From Darksidea phi (taxonomy: Eukaryota; Ascomycota; Dothideomycetes; Pleosporales; Lentitheciaceae): DNA of 64,000 nt. The position numbers and the translations under genes were made by a program. Positions 37,196 to 46,208 of the stretch are shown here, piece after piece. Each line of letters begins with the position of its first letter. The stretch's first letter is position 1. The notes beneath the pieces are model-generated. The model made no database searches, was not told where the DNA came from, and worked only from the letters and a program-made list of their open reading frames with translations. Where the stretch lies: the NCBI GenBank assembly GCA_030770425.1, contig JASJFT010000016.1:62001-126000 (forward strand), in the 5' to 3' direction.

Positions 37196-37687
37196 ACAGC
37201 CTGTACCGATGGGGCAACGAGCAACCAGAGGCAACCTAGAGGACAATTGATCGACGGCATTGTACAAACAGTTAAACAATCAAGACAGCCTGCATTTTGT
37301 AGCAAGATTCCATTTGTCAGAAGCTTTCTGTATCCATCCAGCCATGATATTGTGATCCCCCTTCCCTTCGTAGTGGTATCCAAGACAGGAACAGAGCTCC
37401 ACTGAGTGAGCTTCGCAGTCTACAGCAGGCATCTATAGTCCAAATTGTCCCTTCTACACAAACCTTAGGCGATCGTCATTATAAAATTCCGTCGCCTGAT
37501 GCGTTAGAGTCAAGTTAGAGCTCTACCCGCTTTCAGAGACGTCCTTTGCTGGTCCAGGGTCCATACACTCTTTCATTTCGCACGTTTCCACACAAGGCTA
37601 GCGCGCCCCAAAAACGTCAGTTGCCCAGCTTCCTCCACGGCACGACTCCGCACAACACCACAACAGCCATTGTGTTGACAAGACGAG
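37196..37687. other. Intergenic region
   Basis: About 490 bp between two rightward genes, holding the 3' end of the Cox7-type gene and the promoter of the CCDC47-type gene. No other gene seen. Confidence 0.5.
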
Positions 37688-39176
37688 ATGGCCGACTTTG
37701 TAAAGGGCCTCTTTGGCGCCCAGAAGCCTGTGCAGCCTGCTTCTGCCGGCGACGACGGTACGTACATGATTTCGCAATCGATCGCACACCTGGATTCGGG
37801 AGTGCAAGCTCAATGTGCAGCTGGAGCATCGCTAAACTTCATCACATAGATTTTGCCGACTATGCGGGCGCGCCAGATCCGACGCCAGCTGTCTCGCCGT
37901 TCTCTACCGCCTCAGCGCCTTTCCCTGGCCCTACCTCCACCGTCGGCCAGGTCGCATACACAAAATGGTACCGCGTGTGGGAGCGCGCGACCATCGACGA
38001 CTTCAAGCTCGAGCTCTACGTGCTTCCTTTCATCCTCGTCATCGTTGCGGTACATATCTGGGGTACGCGCCGAAATCGCGCCAAGGCCATGCACTGGATG
38101 AAATCGCATGCGCCGCTGCTACAGCAGGAGTTCGCTCAGGTCGGATACCTCCGCCCACAAGCTTTGGTGGACGATGTGAGCGCGACGGGACTTACTCAGG
38201 CTTCTGAGAAGGCGAAGAACGAAGCGGCGGATCCTGCCAACATGCTGCGCGAGAAGGCGGCCGATTCGTACGCGACGTATGCCACCGGCCGCCGGAACGT
38301 CGCATTCGTCGACTTCAAGCTGACCCTCGTCAAACGCTACAACCCGCTCATGCTCTTCGGTGAGCAGGTGCTTGCCTTGTTCTTCGAGAGCATGCCAGCC
38401 CCGGTGGAGCGCATGGAAGCTACCTCGTACGCGTTCGACGGTCGCGAGGCCTCCATCGTTCCGGGTTTCGGCCAGGGAGAGTCGAAGAAGGTGCCGAACA
38501 GCAGCTACGATGGTTTTGTCTTTGCTGTTGTCCACAAAGATCTCATGAAGCGCCTGCGCGAGGATCGCTACGACCTTTCCCTGACTGCGAGCAAGGACCA
38601 TGCTAAGCTCCCCATCTGGACTACCGTCATGAGTGAGAGCGCCGAGGTCACCGATACCCTCTTGACGCCAGAGCTCATCAAGGCTATCAAGGATGCTGGA
38701 GACAGTTTCGAGGCATTGGTCGTTACCGACCAGCCCATGGACCAGCCGAAGAAGTCGGTACCTCCAACATCTCTCACCTTACACATACTAACATTCATAG
38801 GCTTGACGACACTGTCCCCCGCAAGCGCATCAACCTCTCGATGAAGCTCAACTCCCCTTCCACACCTTATACCTCCACTCTTCCCCTCTTCCAGTACTTC
38901 CTTCGCCTCCCCGACATCCTTGTCTCCAGCGCGCGCTTCCGTCCCGAAGCACTTCGTCGCATCAAGGCCACGCGCGACGAGCAGATTGCTAAGATCCGTC
39001 GTATCGACGACGAGGAGAAGGCCGAGGAGCGCAAGCTCGCTGGTGATAAGCTGAAGAAGGAGAAGCGCGATGCCATGTTGAGCAGAATGAGTGCGGATGA
39101 GCAAAGGAAGTATCTTGAGAAGGAGAGGGAGAGAGATAGCAAGAAGAGACAGAAAAAGCAAACCGTTAAGGCGTAA
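37688..39176 (+). CDS. CCDC47-type ER membrane protein (DUF1682)
   Basis: Predicted 449-residue protein from exons 37688-37757, 37850-38753 and 38801-39176. The introns are 92 bp and 47 bp; the second uses donor GTCGGT and branch ACTAAC. One transmembrane segment lies at about residues 79-95 (LYVLPFILVIVAVHIW). It is followed by a long cytosolic domain with the family landmarks NVAFVDFKLTLVKRYNPLML, YDGFVFAVVHKDLMKRLRED and a C-terminal half with FRLPDIL-like text (LFQYFLRLPDIL). The C-terminus is a highly charged Lys/Glu/Arg coiled coil. In animals CCDC47 is part of the PAT complex at the translocon, helping insertion of multi-pass membrane proteins, and affects ER calcium. The same ER role is inferred here. 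Confidence 0.85.
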
Positions 39177-41121
39177 TGCGGCCTTGCGCCCCGGTCTACA
39201 TGATTCTTGGGTGTGCGGTTGGATGATGTGTGGATGTTTTGCGATATGCGAGGGTATGAGAACCACTGTTGAGTGCGGACGCAGAACTTGTGAGATATAA
39301 AACGTTGTATATTTGCATAACGGAGCCTGTCATCTACCATATGAGGCCAAATATTAGAATCGTCTACTGCCATTTTACTCTTGTTGTAACTTTTCTACAT
39401 GATGAATGCTCCTTTCTCAGACACTCCCTAGTACTTCCTCCCCATTTTCCGCAGCTCTCCCAGACAAGGCTCTGCTCAACACATCCGTTCTTAGACCAGG
39501 AGGACTGCGTACCATGATGGAATCTACGTCGCCTATTGCATTTCAGACCGCCTGCTAAATTGTGATTTAGCACTCTAGCAGATACCGATGTTTGATCTAA
39601 TCTGCATTCTAGAAGCACACAAGTCTCTATTTCGAGGTATAGGTTTACGAAGTCATTCCGCACCATTTCTAGTATAGAATATGCAAACCATGTTAAAATT
39701 GATAAAGATCTGTACAAGATGGTTACACGGTGTCATTCTCGCTCGCATGTAGAGGGCCCCATTTCGTGTTTCTTGGGCTGGGAAGGGTGGGTAATTGGTT
39801 AGGTTTATCTTCAGGTGCTAGTCTAAAACTGACGGGTCTAGATCAGGAGTTAGGGAATATGGCTATTAGAGGTTGAAAGGCGGAATAGCTTTTATGTAGG
39901 TAAAGGAACGAGTGGTAGAAGGGAAACGGTAAAGGGAATTTCTAAAGGTGTGTGGTTTACTTTGGCGTGTGAGAACCTGTGTGAGAATGGGCTTCAGAGC
40001 CAGAGACGAACAATCGAAGACATGACTAGGCTGTATCTTTCAAATCGACCGGAATCCTAGCTTCTCTAAACTCATACACGTTCTACTTCCCTTCTTCCCT
40101 ATAGGCACCTACCAGCCCCATCCAATAAGTGTAAGTGTATTCCTCTCCCGAACAAATCCATCGTCACTCAGATAACGAAAGCCACAACATCAGCCGTCAA
40201 AGTCGCAATCCCACTCGCGCTCATTAGAGGATGCCTGTCCTATATTGAAAGTAACAAATATGTGATTACAGGTTTAGATACCTATGAAGGTGATATAACA
40301 TGGCCAAGGTCATACAAGCCTACATGCCATGGTGGTGCTACTCACAGTTGCTGGACACAATATAAATTGTACACGACGAGAAATACAAAGTGTACACAAT
40401 AATGGCAGTCATGGGCGAGCAGGTACTTCACAATTGGCCCAACCAATCATAGCGATGGAAAGCCATTTGAAGTTGTAGATGCTGTTGAAACCCGCAGTCA
40501 AAGAACCAAATGAGGCCGATTTTGAGAAGCTGCGGTTCTTCTGCGCGCCAGGACGCTTTGACTGTTGTAGCATGGACTGTGCAAAGGTCGAGCTAGCACA
40601 CGTAAGTCGGAGCGAAGAAGAAAGGTATCCCGATGGATTCCGTGTGTTTAGCACTATGGAAGCAAAAGGAAGAGGCGCCAACGAGCAATGGGTTTGACGG
40701 AGAAGATAAACATGACACCTTAAAGAATTCACGGAGGCACGAGGACAAAGACCTGACGAAGATCAGGCGATAGGAAACTTCGTGTAAGCAAAAGACTCCA
40801 TTATTATCCACAGGTTTGCTTGACGATTCCCATCACCTGAGCATGAAATCCCAGCGCCAGATGCCATGCGAGATGGTATGCCTTGCCTTTAGACGCCGCC
40901 AGCGGGTGAACGCCAACGTTGTCCTCAGGGGGGCGGTTGAGCCTAGCCAGGTGACCAAAGCAAAGAAGAGTTATAGACACAATTTGGAAGTATATGGCCG
41001 ACCGGAAACAAACTCCTTGATGCTTTCGTGACACATGCGGAATGTTTCGACCTATTTCAATTAGCTTGGTGTTATTGTAGATAACAGCGAGAGGAGCTTA
41101 CCGTTGACTAGGAAGAGACAT
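39177..41121. other. Gene-free convergent interval
   Basis: About 1.9 kb between the 3' ends of the CCDC47-type gene and HEX1. Only short ORFs without features were seen; the interval presumably includes both 3' untranslated regions. Confidence 0.5.
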
Positions 41122-43011
41122 CTACATCTTGGATCCGTGGACGACCTTGTAGTCGACAGCCATCTCAAGACCCTCATCGTTGATGACAAGGATGCGGATG
41201 CTACCACGGCCATTGTCGAAGGACTCGGTCAAGCGCTTGAGGAGGTTGCTCTGGTCGAGCACTGGGAGACCCTGCTTGACATCACCAGTCTCGGTCATGG
41301 CAACAACGCGACCATCCTCGCGGATGTCAAGGACACGGTACTGTTTGAAGACAGGGCCGAGCATGTTCTGAACGACGACCGAGGGGGCCGGGTTGGAGAT
41401 GAAGCTGGACTCCTCATGAAGCTGCTTGGTGAACAGGTCAACACCGAGGTAACGGTGTTGGCCAGTCTGAGACGATGTGGTGATGCGGATGACCTGGCAA
41501 GGGCGGCCCTGGAGGATCAGGAGATCGCCAATGCGGATGTGGTGGCAGGGGATGGTGATGGTGTTGGGAGGAGTCATCTTGCGGGATTCGACGACCGTCG
41601 TCTGTTGGAGAGAAGGGCCGGGGGAGGGGCGATAGATAGGGGCCGGAGCGGAGGGGACAGCAGGGGCAGTGGAGTGAGTAGTAGTGGAAGAGCGGTAGAG
41701 AGGAGCGGCTACGGACGGAGCGGGAGTTGAGGCGTACTTCTCCTTAACGATGACCTCTTCGCGACGGTCTTCGTGCTTGGATCCGGCGTGGGAGTGAGCG
41801 TGGGAGTGGTGGTGGCGGTGACCGTGGATGGGGTGAACGATGTGATCGGCGACCTTGTGAGCAGCCTTGGAGATACCGTGACGGAAGGAATGATAATGTC
41901 CGTCTTCGTCGTAATATCCCATATCACGCTTGAACTTCTTGGGTTCGTCAACCGTGGTACGAGTAGTCTCTACTCGAACCTGCTCCCGGGAAGGGTAGCG
42001 GCTGTCGACGGTGTCAACCTGACGACGCTGGGGGTAGGTGTCGTGCTTGGCGGCGTAGGTCTCCTTGCGATAGCTGGAGGCCTGCTCGTTACTGGGGTAG
42101 GTGCTAAGGTTGGAGTGACCCTCGGCAACGTGACCAGCTACAATGGGACGGGTACGTTCGCGGAATTGACGCTCAGAGACGTCAACCTGGGAGGCACCGT
42201 GGTCGGAGGTCGAACCGTGGACGGCGTTGAAGTCCCGGTCGTAGGTGGTAGCCTTGACGTCGATGTGGCTATCGACGAAAGGGCGACGAGGTGGTTGGGG
42301 TGGTTGGAAGCTGTGATGAGGAAGGAGAAGGTCAGCTGGAGCAGGGAAGAGAAAAGTAGGGAAAAGTGGGTCGCGCGTGTCGCTAGGACAACAATCAAAC
42401 AGAAAGGGTTAAGCGAGCTGCAGCCCATGCGCTCAGGGGGTGGATGTGGCTGGGTGGGCTGCCGAGGGCAGAGAAGAGCAAAACAAAGCACTTACTGGTC
42501 TCGGGGGCCGCGCGTGTGGACGTCGACCTCTACGCGTTCGCGACGGGAGTGCTGCTCGGGTTGTCTGTAGCGGTGCTCCTCGTGGATGTGGACTTCCTCG
42601 CGGTGCTGCGGCTGGGGCTGGCGGTAATGCTGAGATGGGGGTTGATGCTGTGATGGAGGTGGAGGACGACGGGTGCGGTCTTCAAATACTCGTACGTCTT
42701 CGGTGTAGGAGGTCTCGCGGCGCTCAGCAGGCTTGACGTTGACGGCGAAGGATTCCTTATGTTCAGAGTGACCTTCCCGCCCTGCCTGTGGTAGCTTTGC
42801 CTCTACGTCTACCTGTGCGCCGTGAGCGCGCGGTTGTTTTGATGCGCCTGCCGCACTCACCTTGACTTTGGTTGATTCTTCTACAGCGTCCTTGCTGACG
42901 TTCCGATAGCTGGACGGGAAGACACTGAACGGGATCGGAACTGCGTCTCGTCAGCGCTGCGCTCTCGCCTGAAGGCGGCGTGTTGCACTCACCTCTGGCG
43001 TCAAAATCCAG
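41122..43011 (-). CDS. hex1: Woronin body major protein HEX1, with upstream in-frame extension
   Basis: HEX1 self-assembles inside peroxisomes into the crystalline core of Woronin bodies, which plug septal pores after wounding. The 266-residue form starts at the ATG at 41922 (MGYYDEDGHYHSFRHG, the classical HEX1 start). It then has a His-rich region and the eIF5A-like core (IPCHHIRIGDLLILQGRPCQ; YLGVDLFTKQLHEESSF). It ends in SKM, a peroxisomal PTS1 variant. The same frame continues upstream without a stop through 42310 and across introns 42495-42311 and 42860-42813 to exon 42940-42861. A 52-bp intron (42992-42941) then leads to a first exon whose frame opens at a CTG at 43011. That would give 534 residues. 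No ATG exists in the spliced leader, so the long form would need non-AUG initiation. The core annotation is secure; the extension is a prediction. Confidence 0.9.
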
Positions 43012-44060
43012 GGTGACGGAGTCGTCGCGTCACTTCTTTATCCAGAAAGGATGAAGAAGCGACTTGGTGCTCCTTGGGGGTACAGGTGTAGAAGGGGGGA
43101 GGCGAGCCTTAAGAAGCCAGCTTGACGCGCGATTCGGTGTGAATACGTGCAATTGGTGTGCAGTAGCGGGGCTGCGGTGAAGGAGGAGAGAGGGCAGGTT
43201 TGGTGGAGGAGGGGAGAGGATAGGTGGCCGTCAGCTGGGAGATCTGGGTGGGCCGTGGACAGCTTCCACGCGCGCCGGGATTGGCCCAACCTCGCGCTTT
43301 TCGGGGCCGTAAACAACGCCTTGCCCGATTGGAACAGCTCCTGCCGCTAGAGCGTCTGAGCTCCCCTTTTTATGCGCCGCCCGCGACACAGCAACACTTT
43401 GCCCACGCCGGCTCGCCCAGCCCGGCACCGAGGCATCTCCTGAAGCTCCAGCGGCCCGCGCTCCCTGCGTTGGCACGGCGATCGCCATGTTCTGACACTG
43501 CAATTGCCAGCAATTGCCAGCAGATGGCGCCCAGGCTCCACCGGCGGCTGGGAAGCTCCCTCGGCCGTCTGCAAGCCTGCGAATCTCACCACAGCCAGTG
43601 CCCGGCCGCTTCACGCGTGGAGCGTTGCCATTGGAGCGTCGCGCCCCTCCTCATGCACACACCGCGATAGTGGGCATCGCTGGCAGAGGCAGAGGCATTT
43701 CTCAGCTGAGGATGCATGCCATGAGCTCCAGCCATCTATTTTTGGCCCCTTCTGATTGGCCGAATTAGAGTTTGGCTTGCCCCGGCCGCCTTTGGCCTAG
43801 CGCGGACCCAGCCGTCCGATCACGTGGACATGCTCTCGTCCCGACATGTGAACTGACACACCGCGTCAATCTGCTTCGACGACGAGCGGCCCACCATGGT
43901 TCGCATCTGCCGCCAACGGCTGCCTGCATCATCACCCCAGAGAGCACCTGCAGCTGCCGGCATGACGAGCATTAGATGTGCGATGGATTTCGCCGCGAGA
44001 TCCGGTGGGATATGCATTCTACTGTGTAGGCGCATTCGACAGACCAACCGAATGGCTCCT
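43012..44060. other. Upstream region of HEX1
   Basis: About 1 kb of GC-rich DNA between HEX1 and the 3' end of the leftward regulator gene. It should hold the HEX1 promoter and 5' untranslated sequence. The many overlapping ORFs have no protein features. Confidence 0.5.
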
Positions 44061-46208
44061 CTACCATGCAATGAGCTTCTTCACCCCGCCCTGCCCCGCC
44101 TCGTACTGTGTCACACTCTGAAACTCGGCCTCCATCACTCTCGCAGCCACATATCTTATATCGACGGATCGGACTTTGTTGCCGTCTGGGATGTACTCTG
44201 ACCCCGCGCCCGAGCAGCCTCGGCGCACGCCCAAATCCCCATCCACGGCCGTCTCTTCCAACACTAGACTTTCCCATGCAATACGCCCCGCAAGAACGCT
44301 GTCCCAGACGCCCTCTCGCCGCGGATAGTCCAGCATGAGGGCGATGGCTCTGCGTCGGAGACGGAACGATTTAGCCCGTGCGGCAACGAGCCACAGTGCC
44401 GAAAGTAGTCCCGAGCAAGATGAAAAGACCGGTCGTGAGTATGCTGGAAGCTTCATCTGAGAGACGTTTTCCACGTCGGACGGGAATGGGTAGTAATCCT
44501 CCGGCACGGCTCCCACTGGGAGGCTCAGGTCAGCAGGCGCCTTCAGTAGATCGCTCGCGAGGTCCAGTATGACGCCCATATCCTGCTCGTCAATATGCCA
44601 GTCAATCTCGCGCACATGCTTTACTTCGTCGAACCCCTTGTAGATCTTCAAGTACACCTTCACCTGCTCACGAAATAGTCGAATGCCTTGTATGGACTCC
44701 CGATCCTCTTCGTTTGTTATGTGGGACAGCTGAGCAAGAAATTCGTCTAGGCGGTCGCTCATCTCCTGCGCCTGACGCTGGTGCTCTTGATGCTGTTCTT
44801 TGACCCGCTGTATCGCACCCGCATCGGTCGGTGGTTTGACATCCAACTCCTGGTGGAAAGCCAGTATGTCGATGAAAGCAGACTCGAAAAAGTATCGGGC
44901 TTGGGCAAACGTCCTGAATTTTGCAGGCGGGGCGAGAAACTTTCTCTTTGGGTGCGGAACCCACTGTAACAGCGATTCGTCGCTCATTATGCCTCTGGCT
45001 TGGACGTCCATGGTGACGAACATGGCTCGCAAAGTGTGGAGTTTTATGGGATGATGATCGAGATCCTCCGCATTGCTCACGCTTCTGTCAACCTCGTGCA
45101 GGATCTTAAGACCACTGCGTAGTTGCTCCAAAGCCACTTCCTGATGACCTTGGAAGCATGCAAGGCAGTAGAATAGAATGCATGCAGTCATCATGTCCAG
45201 GCTATCTGAAATTGTTTTTCGGGCCGGTGACTTTCTCAATTCCTGGATTGCACGATTCGACTGCTGTAGAGCGAATTGTAGTTGTTTATCTGAAGTCTCA
45301 TCAGGTACGACCGGCATCCTTCCAACAATGAACTTGCGATGCAGGGCGGCCATAGCTACTATGGCATGTCGAATTGCGGGGAGAGTATGCGACGCTTGGA
45401 GGACCTCAAACTGCCAGAAGCTGGAGTCGAAGAAACCAGCCAACTACTGCAGTGAGCTACACGCATGAACGAGACTTTTGACCGACTCACCTCACTCGCC
45501 GTATAGGTTTTGAAGAAATGAAACGCCTCCTGCTCCTCTGTGGAGTGCGAGAACACGCCAGGCATCGATGGAAGCGGCAATTGTGGAGGTGTGTACACGA
45601 TCGCACACGATTGCGCCGTCACCGCTGAAGTCGTATATCCATCGCATTTGCGCCCGGTCGATACACATCGTTGACAGCTGGGCTTTGCTTCGTCGCATTT
45701 GACCCGTCGAATTCTGATGAACGATTAGCGTCCCGAGCAGTTTGTGTTTGAACGAAGTGCGGTCAGATTAGGCATGTTGCCAGAAGCGTAGGCTGGATTC
45801 AAGACACTCTTTCGGGGGAACTACAAGGTCTATACGGATACGGCTATACCTAGACCCTTTATGGCGTCTCCAGACTCCAATACATCGTACCGACCGAGCG
45901 GCCGTGCAACGTAGACGCCCGCTAAGTCAGGAGACGCCGCATTGTGTGCATACGGGCTGCCCGGTATTGGGCGCGAGGCTACTGATACGCCGCCTTCTTG
46001 CATCATGCCGGCGATCCGTCCCAGAACAACCGTGACGCTCAAAGTGGAGAAGACCAACCGCCTTTACTTACCTGCAAGTGACGCATCCAGTCTTCGTCTT
46101 TGGTCTCCACACCTTCTTCCGTATGTTCTCTTTCTTTCCGTTCACCTTCCCAGTGTCACCCTTCTCGTTCGTCTTCGTCAAGGCCGTGGTACGGGTATTT
46201 TGAGCCAT
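44061..46208 (-). CDS. Zn2Cys6 transcription factor with fungal C-terminal regulatory domain
   Basis: Predicted 580-residue nuclear regulator from exons 46208-46072, 45713-45491 and 45443-44061. The zinc cluster is split by intron 1: TKTGCVTC on exon 1 and RIRRVKCDEAKPSCQRCVSTGRKC on exon 2, giving the CX2CX6CX5-6CX2CX6C pattern that binds two zinc ions. Intron 1 is unusually long at 358 bp, with good signals (GTAAGT; branch GCTAATC; ATCAG). Intron 2 is 47 bp (GTGAGT..GTAG). The C-terminal 450 residues match the DUF3468-type fungal transcription factor domain: FWQFEVLQASHTLPAIRHAI, then AALHRKF, SDSLDMMTACILFYCLACFQG and LRSGLKILHE. The start ATG gives a basic lead-in (KKENIRKKVWRPKTKTG). Target genes are unknown. 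Confidence 0.88.

Follow-up and report, generated by a model that had tools for sequence, protein, structure and literature searches.

HEX1 is the textbook self-assembling protein of Woronin bodies, which plug wounded hyphae. A Metarhizium study of 460 Hex1 proteins found widely different lengths, with about half of the proteins at 405-534 amino acids (aa); its account did not exclude misannotation of some of them and identified no cause for the length variation (PMC7559983). In Verticillium dahliae, two splice isoforms that differ on the N-terminal side arise from one HEX1 gene, and the article describing them treats N-terminal extensions of HEX1 as likely annotation errors and advises caution (PMC7762394). 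Here we analyse the HEX1 gene of Darksidea phi, located in a stretch of 64,000 nucleotides (nt) of contig JASJFT010000016.1 (the window), whose leader had been proposed, in a reading made from the sequence alone, to encode a long isoform starting at a CUG. We find that the best explanation overall is that one mRNA gives two HEX1 proteoforms through leaky scanning past this CUG, which the sequence evidence makes highly probable.

Three other described systems are close to this locus. Li and Breaker (2017) reported a hexA RNA motif in which a long hairpin, interrupted by two internal loops and resembling a 3' splice site in its right arm, is followed by an extended conserved tail, which varies mostly at every third position, like coding sequence (PMC5640933). 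Its 19 examples from 10 species lie in a 5' untranslated region (UTR) or an intron, a role in splicing control was proposed and then weakened by motifs in the opposite orientation, and the section on this motif names no start codon or protein isoform (PMC5640933). For Neurospora crassa cpc-1 and its Pezizomycotina homologues, Ivanov et al. (2017) described a conserved non-AUG N-terminal extension of about 180 aa under purifying selection, with near-cognate use in vivo below 1% of that of the main AUG in one reporter (PMC5487733). In Ustilago maydis, a peroxisomal isoform of 6-phosphogluconate dehydrogenase (pgd1) is made from a non-AUG start in the 5' leader, which accounts for ~2% of initiation (Kremp et al. 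2020, PMC7214817). A search of the open-licence full-text literature returned no paper linking HEX1 or Woronin bodies to a non-AUG start, and the non-AUG mentions that it found were citations of Kremp et al. on another protein. As far as these accounts go, the hexA leader RNA motif with its coding-like tail and the unexplained variation in HEX1 length are known already, while a long HEX1 from a non-AUG start would be new.

Results

The HEX1 frame continues upstream of its AUG

The product of 41922-41122 is clearly, as judged from its sequence, the Woronin body major protein HEX1. Its 266 residues begin with MGYYDEDGH, continue through a His-rich linker into an eIF5A-like HEX1 domain and end in SKM, which resembles a type 1 peroxisomal targeting signal (PTS1); Pfam PF21485 (IF5A-like_N) and PF01287 (eIF-5a) both score above cut-off, and PDB matches include 8qlw and 1khi, the closest chains being Woronin body proteins, among them 1khi. 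The MGYYDE N-terminus at 41922 and the C-terminal PTS1-like SKM are thus both present, targeting being predicted from sequence. Since this stretch is one open exon, no intron is required near the AUG (optional introns inside it were not searched for).

Upstream of this AUG, four exons join in phase (Table 1) to give an extension of 804 nt followed by the 801-nt main open reading frame (ORF), that is, 534 aa and a stop. The donors of introns 1, 2 and 3 are GTGAGT, GTGAGT and GTAAGT, all three introns end in CAG, and their branch-like sites are CTGAC, CTCAC and CTGAC. The joined 534-residue frame has no inner stop, against 6 and 13 stops in the extension's other two frames, so that stops and codon log-likelihood together single out the frame of the long form. 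The first in-frame stop further upstream is the TGA at 43032-43030. These results place the exons at 43011-42993, 42940-42861, 42812-42496 and 42310-41122, and uphold the sequence-only reading in its well-signalled introns with matching phases and in its two product lengths, 534 residues from CUG and 266 from AUG. A genome search for other copies of the extension gave four matches, of which three were the gene itself and the fourth was weak (E 0.115, another contig).

The extension is conserved as protein in relatives

We collected 286 distinct proteins from three protein searches (the best 120 of 893, 258 and 274 hits, respectively), two of which were queried with the extension of a lichen fungus and with that of a Leotiomycete. 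The full long form shares 84% identity over 99% with a Lentithecium fluviatile model; for the extension taken by itself, this model is the nearest, with 79% identity across 262 of the 268 residues. Across the whole collection, 273 of the 286 proteins are hit by the window's 268-residue extension with E <= 1e-5, the best pieces having a median identity of 38%; coverage reaches at least half of the extension in 169 matches and >= 80% in 101. The queries with the lichen-fungus and Leotiomycete extensions link the distant models and reach Lecanoromycetes, Candelaria, Geoglossum, Trichoglossum and Leotiomycetes, as well as Eurotiomycetes (Aspergillus, Penicillium, Talaromyces, Coccidioides, Trichophyton and Exophiala) and Sordariomycetes (Hypoxylon, Daldinia, Coniochaeta, Podospora, Purpureocillium and Fusarium). 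Pezizomycetes and Orbiliomycetes were not noticed among the matches listed, no search having been aimed at them. The main Met is also kept: the pattern M-x-[YFW]-[YF]-[DE], with a residue before it, occurs in 281 of the 286 models. The upstream frame had been said to look like protein, and frameshifted orthologous leaders with no protein-level conservation had been named as what would speak against this; the opposite was found, with these 273 homologues recognised by the extension and its first 18 residues near-invariant. The extension is thus almost certainly coding, as judged from these comparisons.

Methionine is nearly excluded from this conserved protein. In the 238 models whose extension could be delimited at both ends by pattern, only 3 Met were counted in 54,440 residues, all in models P0102 and P0240, where inspection suggests a retained intron. 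By comparison, the linker between the main Met and the HEX1 domain, which could be bounded in 173 of these models, has 136 Met in 14,324 residues, a rate that would predict ~500 Met in the extension. About one residue in ten of the extension is Val, Ile or Leu, which each have some codon a single base away from that of Met. Smaller subsets gave 0 Met in 19,928 residues (85 of 120 models) and 0 in 26,117 (115 of 216). From the remaining 48 models, 46 gave 8,407 aligned residues with 7 Met; these appear to mark model junctions in P0082, P0119 and P0235 and, in P0105 and P0183, to fall on the main start or beyond it.

Conservation sets in at CTG 43011

In the window, CTG 43011 is preceded by GTCACC and has A at -3 and G at +4. 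The in-frame codons one base away from ATG are ATA, AAG and AAG, then this CTG and, 24 nt later, an ATC; since the first three all precede the TGA, CTG 43011 is the first near-cognate codon after the in-frame stop. We searched the relatives for a start motif, D[FY][DE][AG][RK][VI]P with two residues upstream, and found it in 200 of the 286 models. At the position of the window's CTG, these models have Leu in 199 cases, Gln in one (P0113, which we read as a model junction) and Met in none. The residue before this position (n=200) is Asn in 167, Thr in 16, Lys in 15, Arg in 1 and Gln in 1, so that 198 models have Asn, Thr or Lys there, and since the codons of these three residues share only an A at first position, an A at -3 follows for these models. 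Similarly, the residue two before the Leu is Val (86), Ala (50) or Gly (44) in 180 of 196 models, and since all codons for these begin with G, these models would have a G at -6, as in the Kozak context. This pattern would be the expected imprint of a conserved start context on protein models, the bases themselves being visible in the window only.

Mean gapless pairwise identity per 5 residues, computed on the 200 rows chosen for having the Leu, is 0.06 at -25, 0.10 at -15, 0.19 at -10 and 0.27 at -5, and then 0.91 at 0 and +5. From the Leu to +18, most positions carry 3-4.3 bits, making the first 18 residues near-invariant. One model (P0249, Coniochaeta) starts exactly at the conserved Leu. 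The sequence-only reading had picked this CTG for lying just after an in-frame TGA with A at -3 and G at +4; these features are found as described, and its guess coincides with the point where strong conservation begins in 200 models. On this evidence, CTG 43011 is very likely the start of the long form, and we would infer that CUG is the codon used in the relatives too.

A stable hairpin is predicted just upstream of the CTG

A hairpin of -18.2 kcal/mol is predicted just upstream of the CTG (Table 1). Its 3' base is separated from CTG 43011 by 17 nt, and the in-frame TGA lies within its 3' arm. With flanks of increasing length, its stability relative to shuffled sequences gave z scores of -5.1 for 59 nt, -3.7 for 98 nt and -2.4 for 141 nt; at the first two lengths none of 200 shuffles was as stable, and at the third 2 of 200 were. 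It is the most stable of 1,380 minus-strand windows between 43340 and 41961, and equal stability was reached in only 26 of 42,644 windows of 35 nt over the 64 kb (both strands, step 3, the hairpin itself possibly counted). A 40S ribosome whose P site holds the CUG extends roughly 17 nt upstream, and the hairpin could re-form directly behind a 40S in this position.

We also considered whether the peptides upstream of the start in relatives could encode such a hairpin: of 21 models chosen, 8 were too short, and none of the 13 tested gave a convincing hairpin, shuffles being at least as good in 10 to 88 of 100 cases. An inverted repeat of 7-8 bp lies on the downstream side of the CTG (42941-42934 / 42907-42900); as an initiation-enhancing hairpin it was rejected, being no stabler than shuffles (z 0.02 and 0.78). 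Searching 40500-44500 against Rfam returned no family at E up to 1.

The spliced leader is free of AUG

The 804-nt extension contains no ATG in any frame, as had been claimed for the spliced leader, while the 801-nt main ORF contains 11, five of them out of frame. Between 43436 and 41922, the only ATG is at 42428, inside intron 3; assuming for leader counts that transcription starts at 43340, the spliced AUG-free leader would measure 1,133 nt. The ATGs expected in the extension depend on the null used: 7.3 under base shuffling (chance of none 0.0004), 5.1 when recoded with the codon usage of the main ORF (0.0024), 2.7 with codon order shuffled (0.03) and 2.3 under a first-order Markov model (0.10). 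The figure of about twelve expected ATGs given previously is thus too high, and the statistical argument drawn from this single window was overstated. Codon choice points in the same direction as the missing ATGs: in the extension, all 19 codons for Asn, Asp, His or Tyr that stand before a codon with an initial G have C as their last base, compared with 24 of 32 elsewhere in it (Fisher 0.019), and this bias is absent from the main ORF (11/16 vs 26/33, P 0.49). Since such a codon ending in T would create an out-of-frame ATG with the following G, the bias amounts to a codon choice that avoids out-of-frame ATGs in the window.

The ATG at 42428 sits in the intron 3 sequence GCGCATGG. Retention of intron 3 would stop the long frame at once (GAC CAG TAA) and open a 96-codon out-of-frame upstream ORF (uORF) before the main AUG; it is possible that intron 3 retention acts as an off switch. 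A second CTG with A at -3 and G at +4 lies at 43120 on the minus strand, 109 nt upstream of CTG 43011 and out of frame; it reads LAS and then TAA, possibly a tiny non-AUG uORF.

Alternative explanations

One alternative is a genuine long form that begins at a conventional AUG, carried by another upstream exon that is joined to exon 2 or exon 1. Such an exon would agree with the 242 of 286 retrieved models that begin with Met, many of them upstream of the motif, and 49 ATG..GT combinations in the window do open into 42940; a fair donor is found in just two of these (both GTGTGT at 43662), which would require an intron of 722 nt, with the ATGs lying upstream of the TATA-like box (43373) by 344-362 nt, and no combination with such a donor joins the CTG exon via an AG between 43200 and 43012. 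Gapless similarity between models is, moreover, absent from >= 25 residues upstream of the motif (identity ~0.06), and an upstream AUG exon would leave the constant Leu, the A at -3 and the Met-free extension unexplained, which makes this alternative improbable. That the leader is an untranslated 5' UTR, AUG-free to protect HEX1 expression and with a frame left open by chance or as a relic, seems to us barely credible: AUG avoidance is indeed expected in efficient 5' UTRs and the window-only chance is as weak as P 0.10, but the similarity at the amino-acid level across classes, the frame-specific codon usage and the confinement of stops to the other two frames contradict it. Somewhat less remote, and still very unlikely, is that the conserved element is mainly an RNA structure controlling splicing, as in the published hexA motif, with its coding look secondary. 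In its favour are the strong hairpin predicted shortly before the CTG and the hexA hairpin with a conserved downstream tail reported by Li and Breaker (2017); yet that tail, as their section describes it, itself varies at third positions as coding sequence does (PMC5640933), and the protein similarity extends well past the start, over the whole 268-residue extension in nearer relatives. RNA-structure and coding readings are in any case compatible.

Several points weigh against a long HEX1 started at CTG 43011. The ATG deficit is weak under the Markov null (P 0.10) and moderately unusual overall, so that the window alone is only suggestive and the case is therefore carried by the cross-species evidence. 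There, sequences are related throughout, so that counts do not represent independent events, and direct matches to the window's extension are often partial outside Dothideomycetes and grow shorter with distance (86 residues in the lichen fungus model P0117, 40 in Aspergillus fumigatus P0171). Relatives are known here from protein models, so their Leu could be any leucine codon. The context of the CTG is not special by itself: exon 1 has 3 near-cognates with A at -3 and G at +4 (any frame, start assumed at 43340), CTG 43011 included. Residues -3 to -1 still carry 1.5, 2.3 and 3.5 bits, and residues -6 to -12 carry 0.8-1.2 bits, so that a longer coding region is possible in some lineages; here, the TGA interrupts it. 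The weak conservation at -6 to -12 coincides in the window with the 3' arm of the hairpin and the TGA, and may reflect RNA rather than protein. Finally, the whole case comes from sequence.

The annotated N-termini upstream of the motif vary widely between models. Forty-four of the 286 models do not begin with Met, and some are metagenome ORF calls; the 'partial' models P0016, P0044, P0249 and P0259 lie on contigs of hundreds of kilobases to megabases. In models P0004, P0005 and P0025, the product of another gene, which by eye resembles that of the neighbouring window ORF 44061-45443 (minus strand), precedes HEX1. Gene predictors may have run into HEX1 from its neighbour because HEX1 has no upstream AUG. 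The Rachicladosporium models P0079 and P0084 combine a protein kinase domain (Pfam) with HEX1 and are probably chimeric annotations.

Proposed mechanism and possible function

We propose that the HEX1 mRNA would carry a long leader without AUG, along which scanning ribosomes would reach CUG 43011, in good context and right after a stable hairpin. A minority of them would initiate there with Met and make the 534-residue HEX1, and the others would scan past, with no decoy AUGs on their way, to AUG 41922 and make the 266-residue HEX1. Since the PTS1-like SKM is common to both forms, both could reach the peroxisome. It is likely that the two forms come from one mRNA; we infer that they coexist and that use of the CUG is minor.

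An AlphaFold2 model of P0118 (74 rows) has pLDDT (the program's confidence score) mostly < 50 across the extension, with one short helix at residues 136-148, so that the extension is predicted to be largely disordered. Arg, Val, Pro and Glu are abundant in the extension and His makes up 6.3% of it; it carries a near-invariant tip, MDFDARVPIPFSVFPSSYR, and a conserved TERxYRxRT block. In Aspergillus oryzae, septal pore proteins are reported to contain disordered stretches whose composition is biased to Arg and His (PMC10023807), which fits a septal role of the extension without proving one. The long form might be a minor subunit of the lattice that uses its disordered arm and the near-invariant tip MDFDARVPIPFSVFPSSYR to tether or shape Woronin bodies, either at the peroxisome membrane or at the septal pore; this is a guess that could fall either way. 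More tentatively still, and rather doubtfully when all its parts are taken together, most filamentous ascomycetes could have a hidden CUG-initiated long HEX1 subunit kept in fixed minor proportion because the upstream hairpin re-forms behind the ribosome and holds it on the CUG; the near-invariant first 19 residues would then be a docking peptide that anchors or positions the crystal, and the annotated variation in HEX1 length would largely consist of AUG exons made by software.

Table 1. Features of the HEX1 locus in the window (positions of the window; introns, start and RNA features are predicted from sequence)
Feature	Position	Strand	Basis or remark
AUG-initiated HEX1, 266 aa, one open exon	41122..41922	-	begins MGYYDEDGH, ends in C-terminal SKM
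Exon 4, upstream part, end of extension, 388 nt, ...KFKRD then MGYYD	41923..42310	-	open frame, frame-specific codon usage, homologue matches
Intron 3, 185 nt, GTAAGT...CTGAC...CACAG	42311..42495	-	splice signals
Exon 3 of extension, 317 nt	42496..42812	-	open frame
Intron 2, 48 nt	42813..42860	-	splice signals
Exon 2 of extension, 80 nt, encodes PIPFSVFPSSYRNVSKDAVEE...	42861..42940	-	near-invariant block in 200 models
Intron 1, 52 nt	42941..42992	-	splice signals; donor GTGAGT begins at 42992
Exon 1, coding part: CTG 43011-43009, then GATTTTGACGCCAGAG = (M/L)DFDAR, V after the junction	42993..43011	-	A at -3, G at +4
RNA hairpin, 14 pairs, one 1x1 internal loop, 5-nt loop, -18.2 kcal/mol	43029..43063	-	predicted fold
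TATA-like box CATAAAAAGGG	43364..43374	-	sequence only

Around the gene, an intron-like GTAAGC...ATAG lies at 41101-41052 on the minus strand, directly after the HEX1 stop, and is possibly a 3' UTR intron. Further downstream, an open frame of 432 residues at 37546-38844 (plus strand) converges on HEX1; from its look, it may be CCDC47-like.

Discussion

If a conserved long form of HEX1 exists, an undescribed part of the Woronin body has been missed in many filamentous ascomycetes; the solved Woronin body structures are of short forms, with chains of 176-218 residues. It would help explain the spread in length of the 460 Hex1 proteins compared in the Metarhizium study (PMC7559983). It would also help explain the caution expressed about annotated extensions (PMC7762394), the annotated starts being often wrong and the extension real. 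For non-AUG initiation, HEX1 would in addition be a clean natural model in which a single start is sharply placed, and the conserved tryptic peptide of the extension, VPIPFSVFPSSYR, makes the long form directly testable.

The described systems resemble this locus in different ways. The Verticillium dahliae isoforms differ from the long HEX1 considered here, since both, as that article presents them, retain MGYYDD and the AUG start (PMC7762394). The hexA motif belongs to the same gene family and shares the order of a hairpin followed by a conserved coding-like tail, which is seen here at the protein level (PMC5640933). However, the hairpin of the window has one 1x1 internal loop instead of the two small loops of the published description, and its right arm, GGATAAAGAAGTGAC, contains by eye AAG and no CAG or TAG, so that the resemblance to a 3' splice site is missing; because of these two differences, we do not file it as a member of that motif. 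As proposed here for HEX1, pgd1 encodes a fungal peroxisomal protein with a non-AUG start in its leader; in the account of Kremp et al., its extension is short and adds a type 2 peroxisomal targeting signal (PTS2), whereas HEX1 would have a 268-residue extension and a PTS1-like SKM on both forms (PMC7214817). The likeness to cpc-1, as described by Ivanov et al., lies in a long in-frame extension without an AUG start, near-cognates in good context and conservation across Pezizomycotina (PMC5487733). Since near-cognate use was below 1% there, the long HEX1 may also be scarce. In contrast to cpc-1, which has AUG uORFs and several candidate near-cognates in that description, the leader of HEX1 is free of AUG, its single putative start is sharply placed, and the product is a structural organelle protein.
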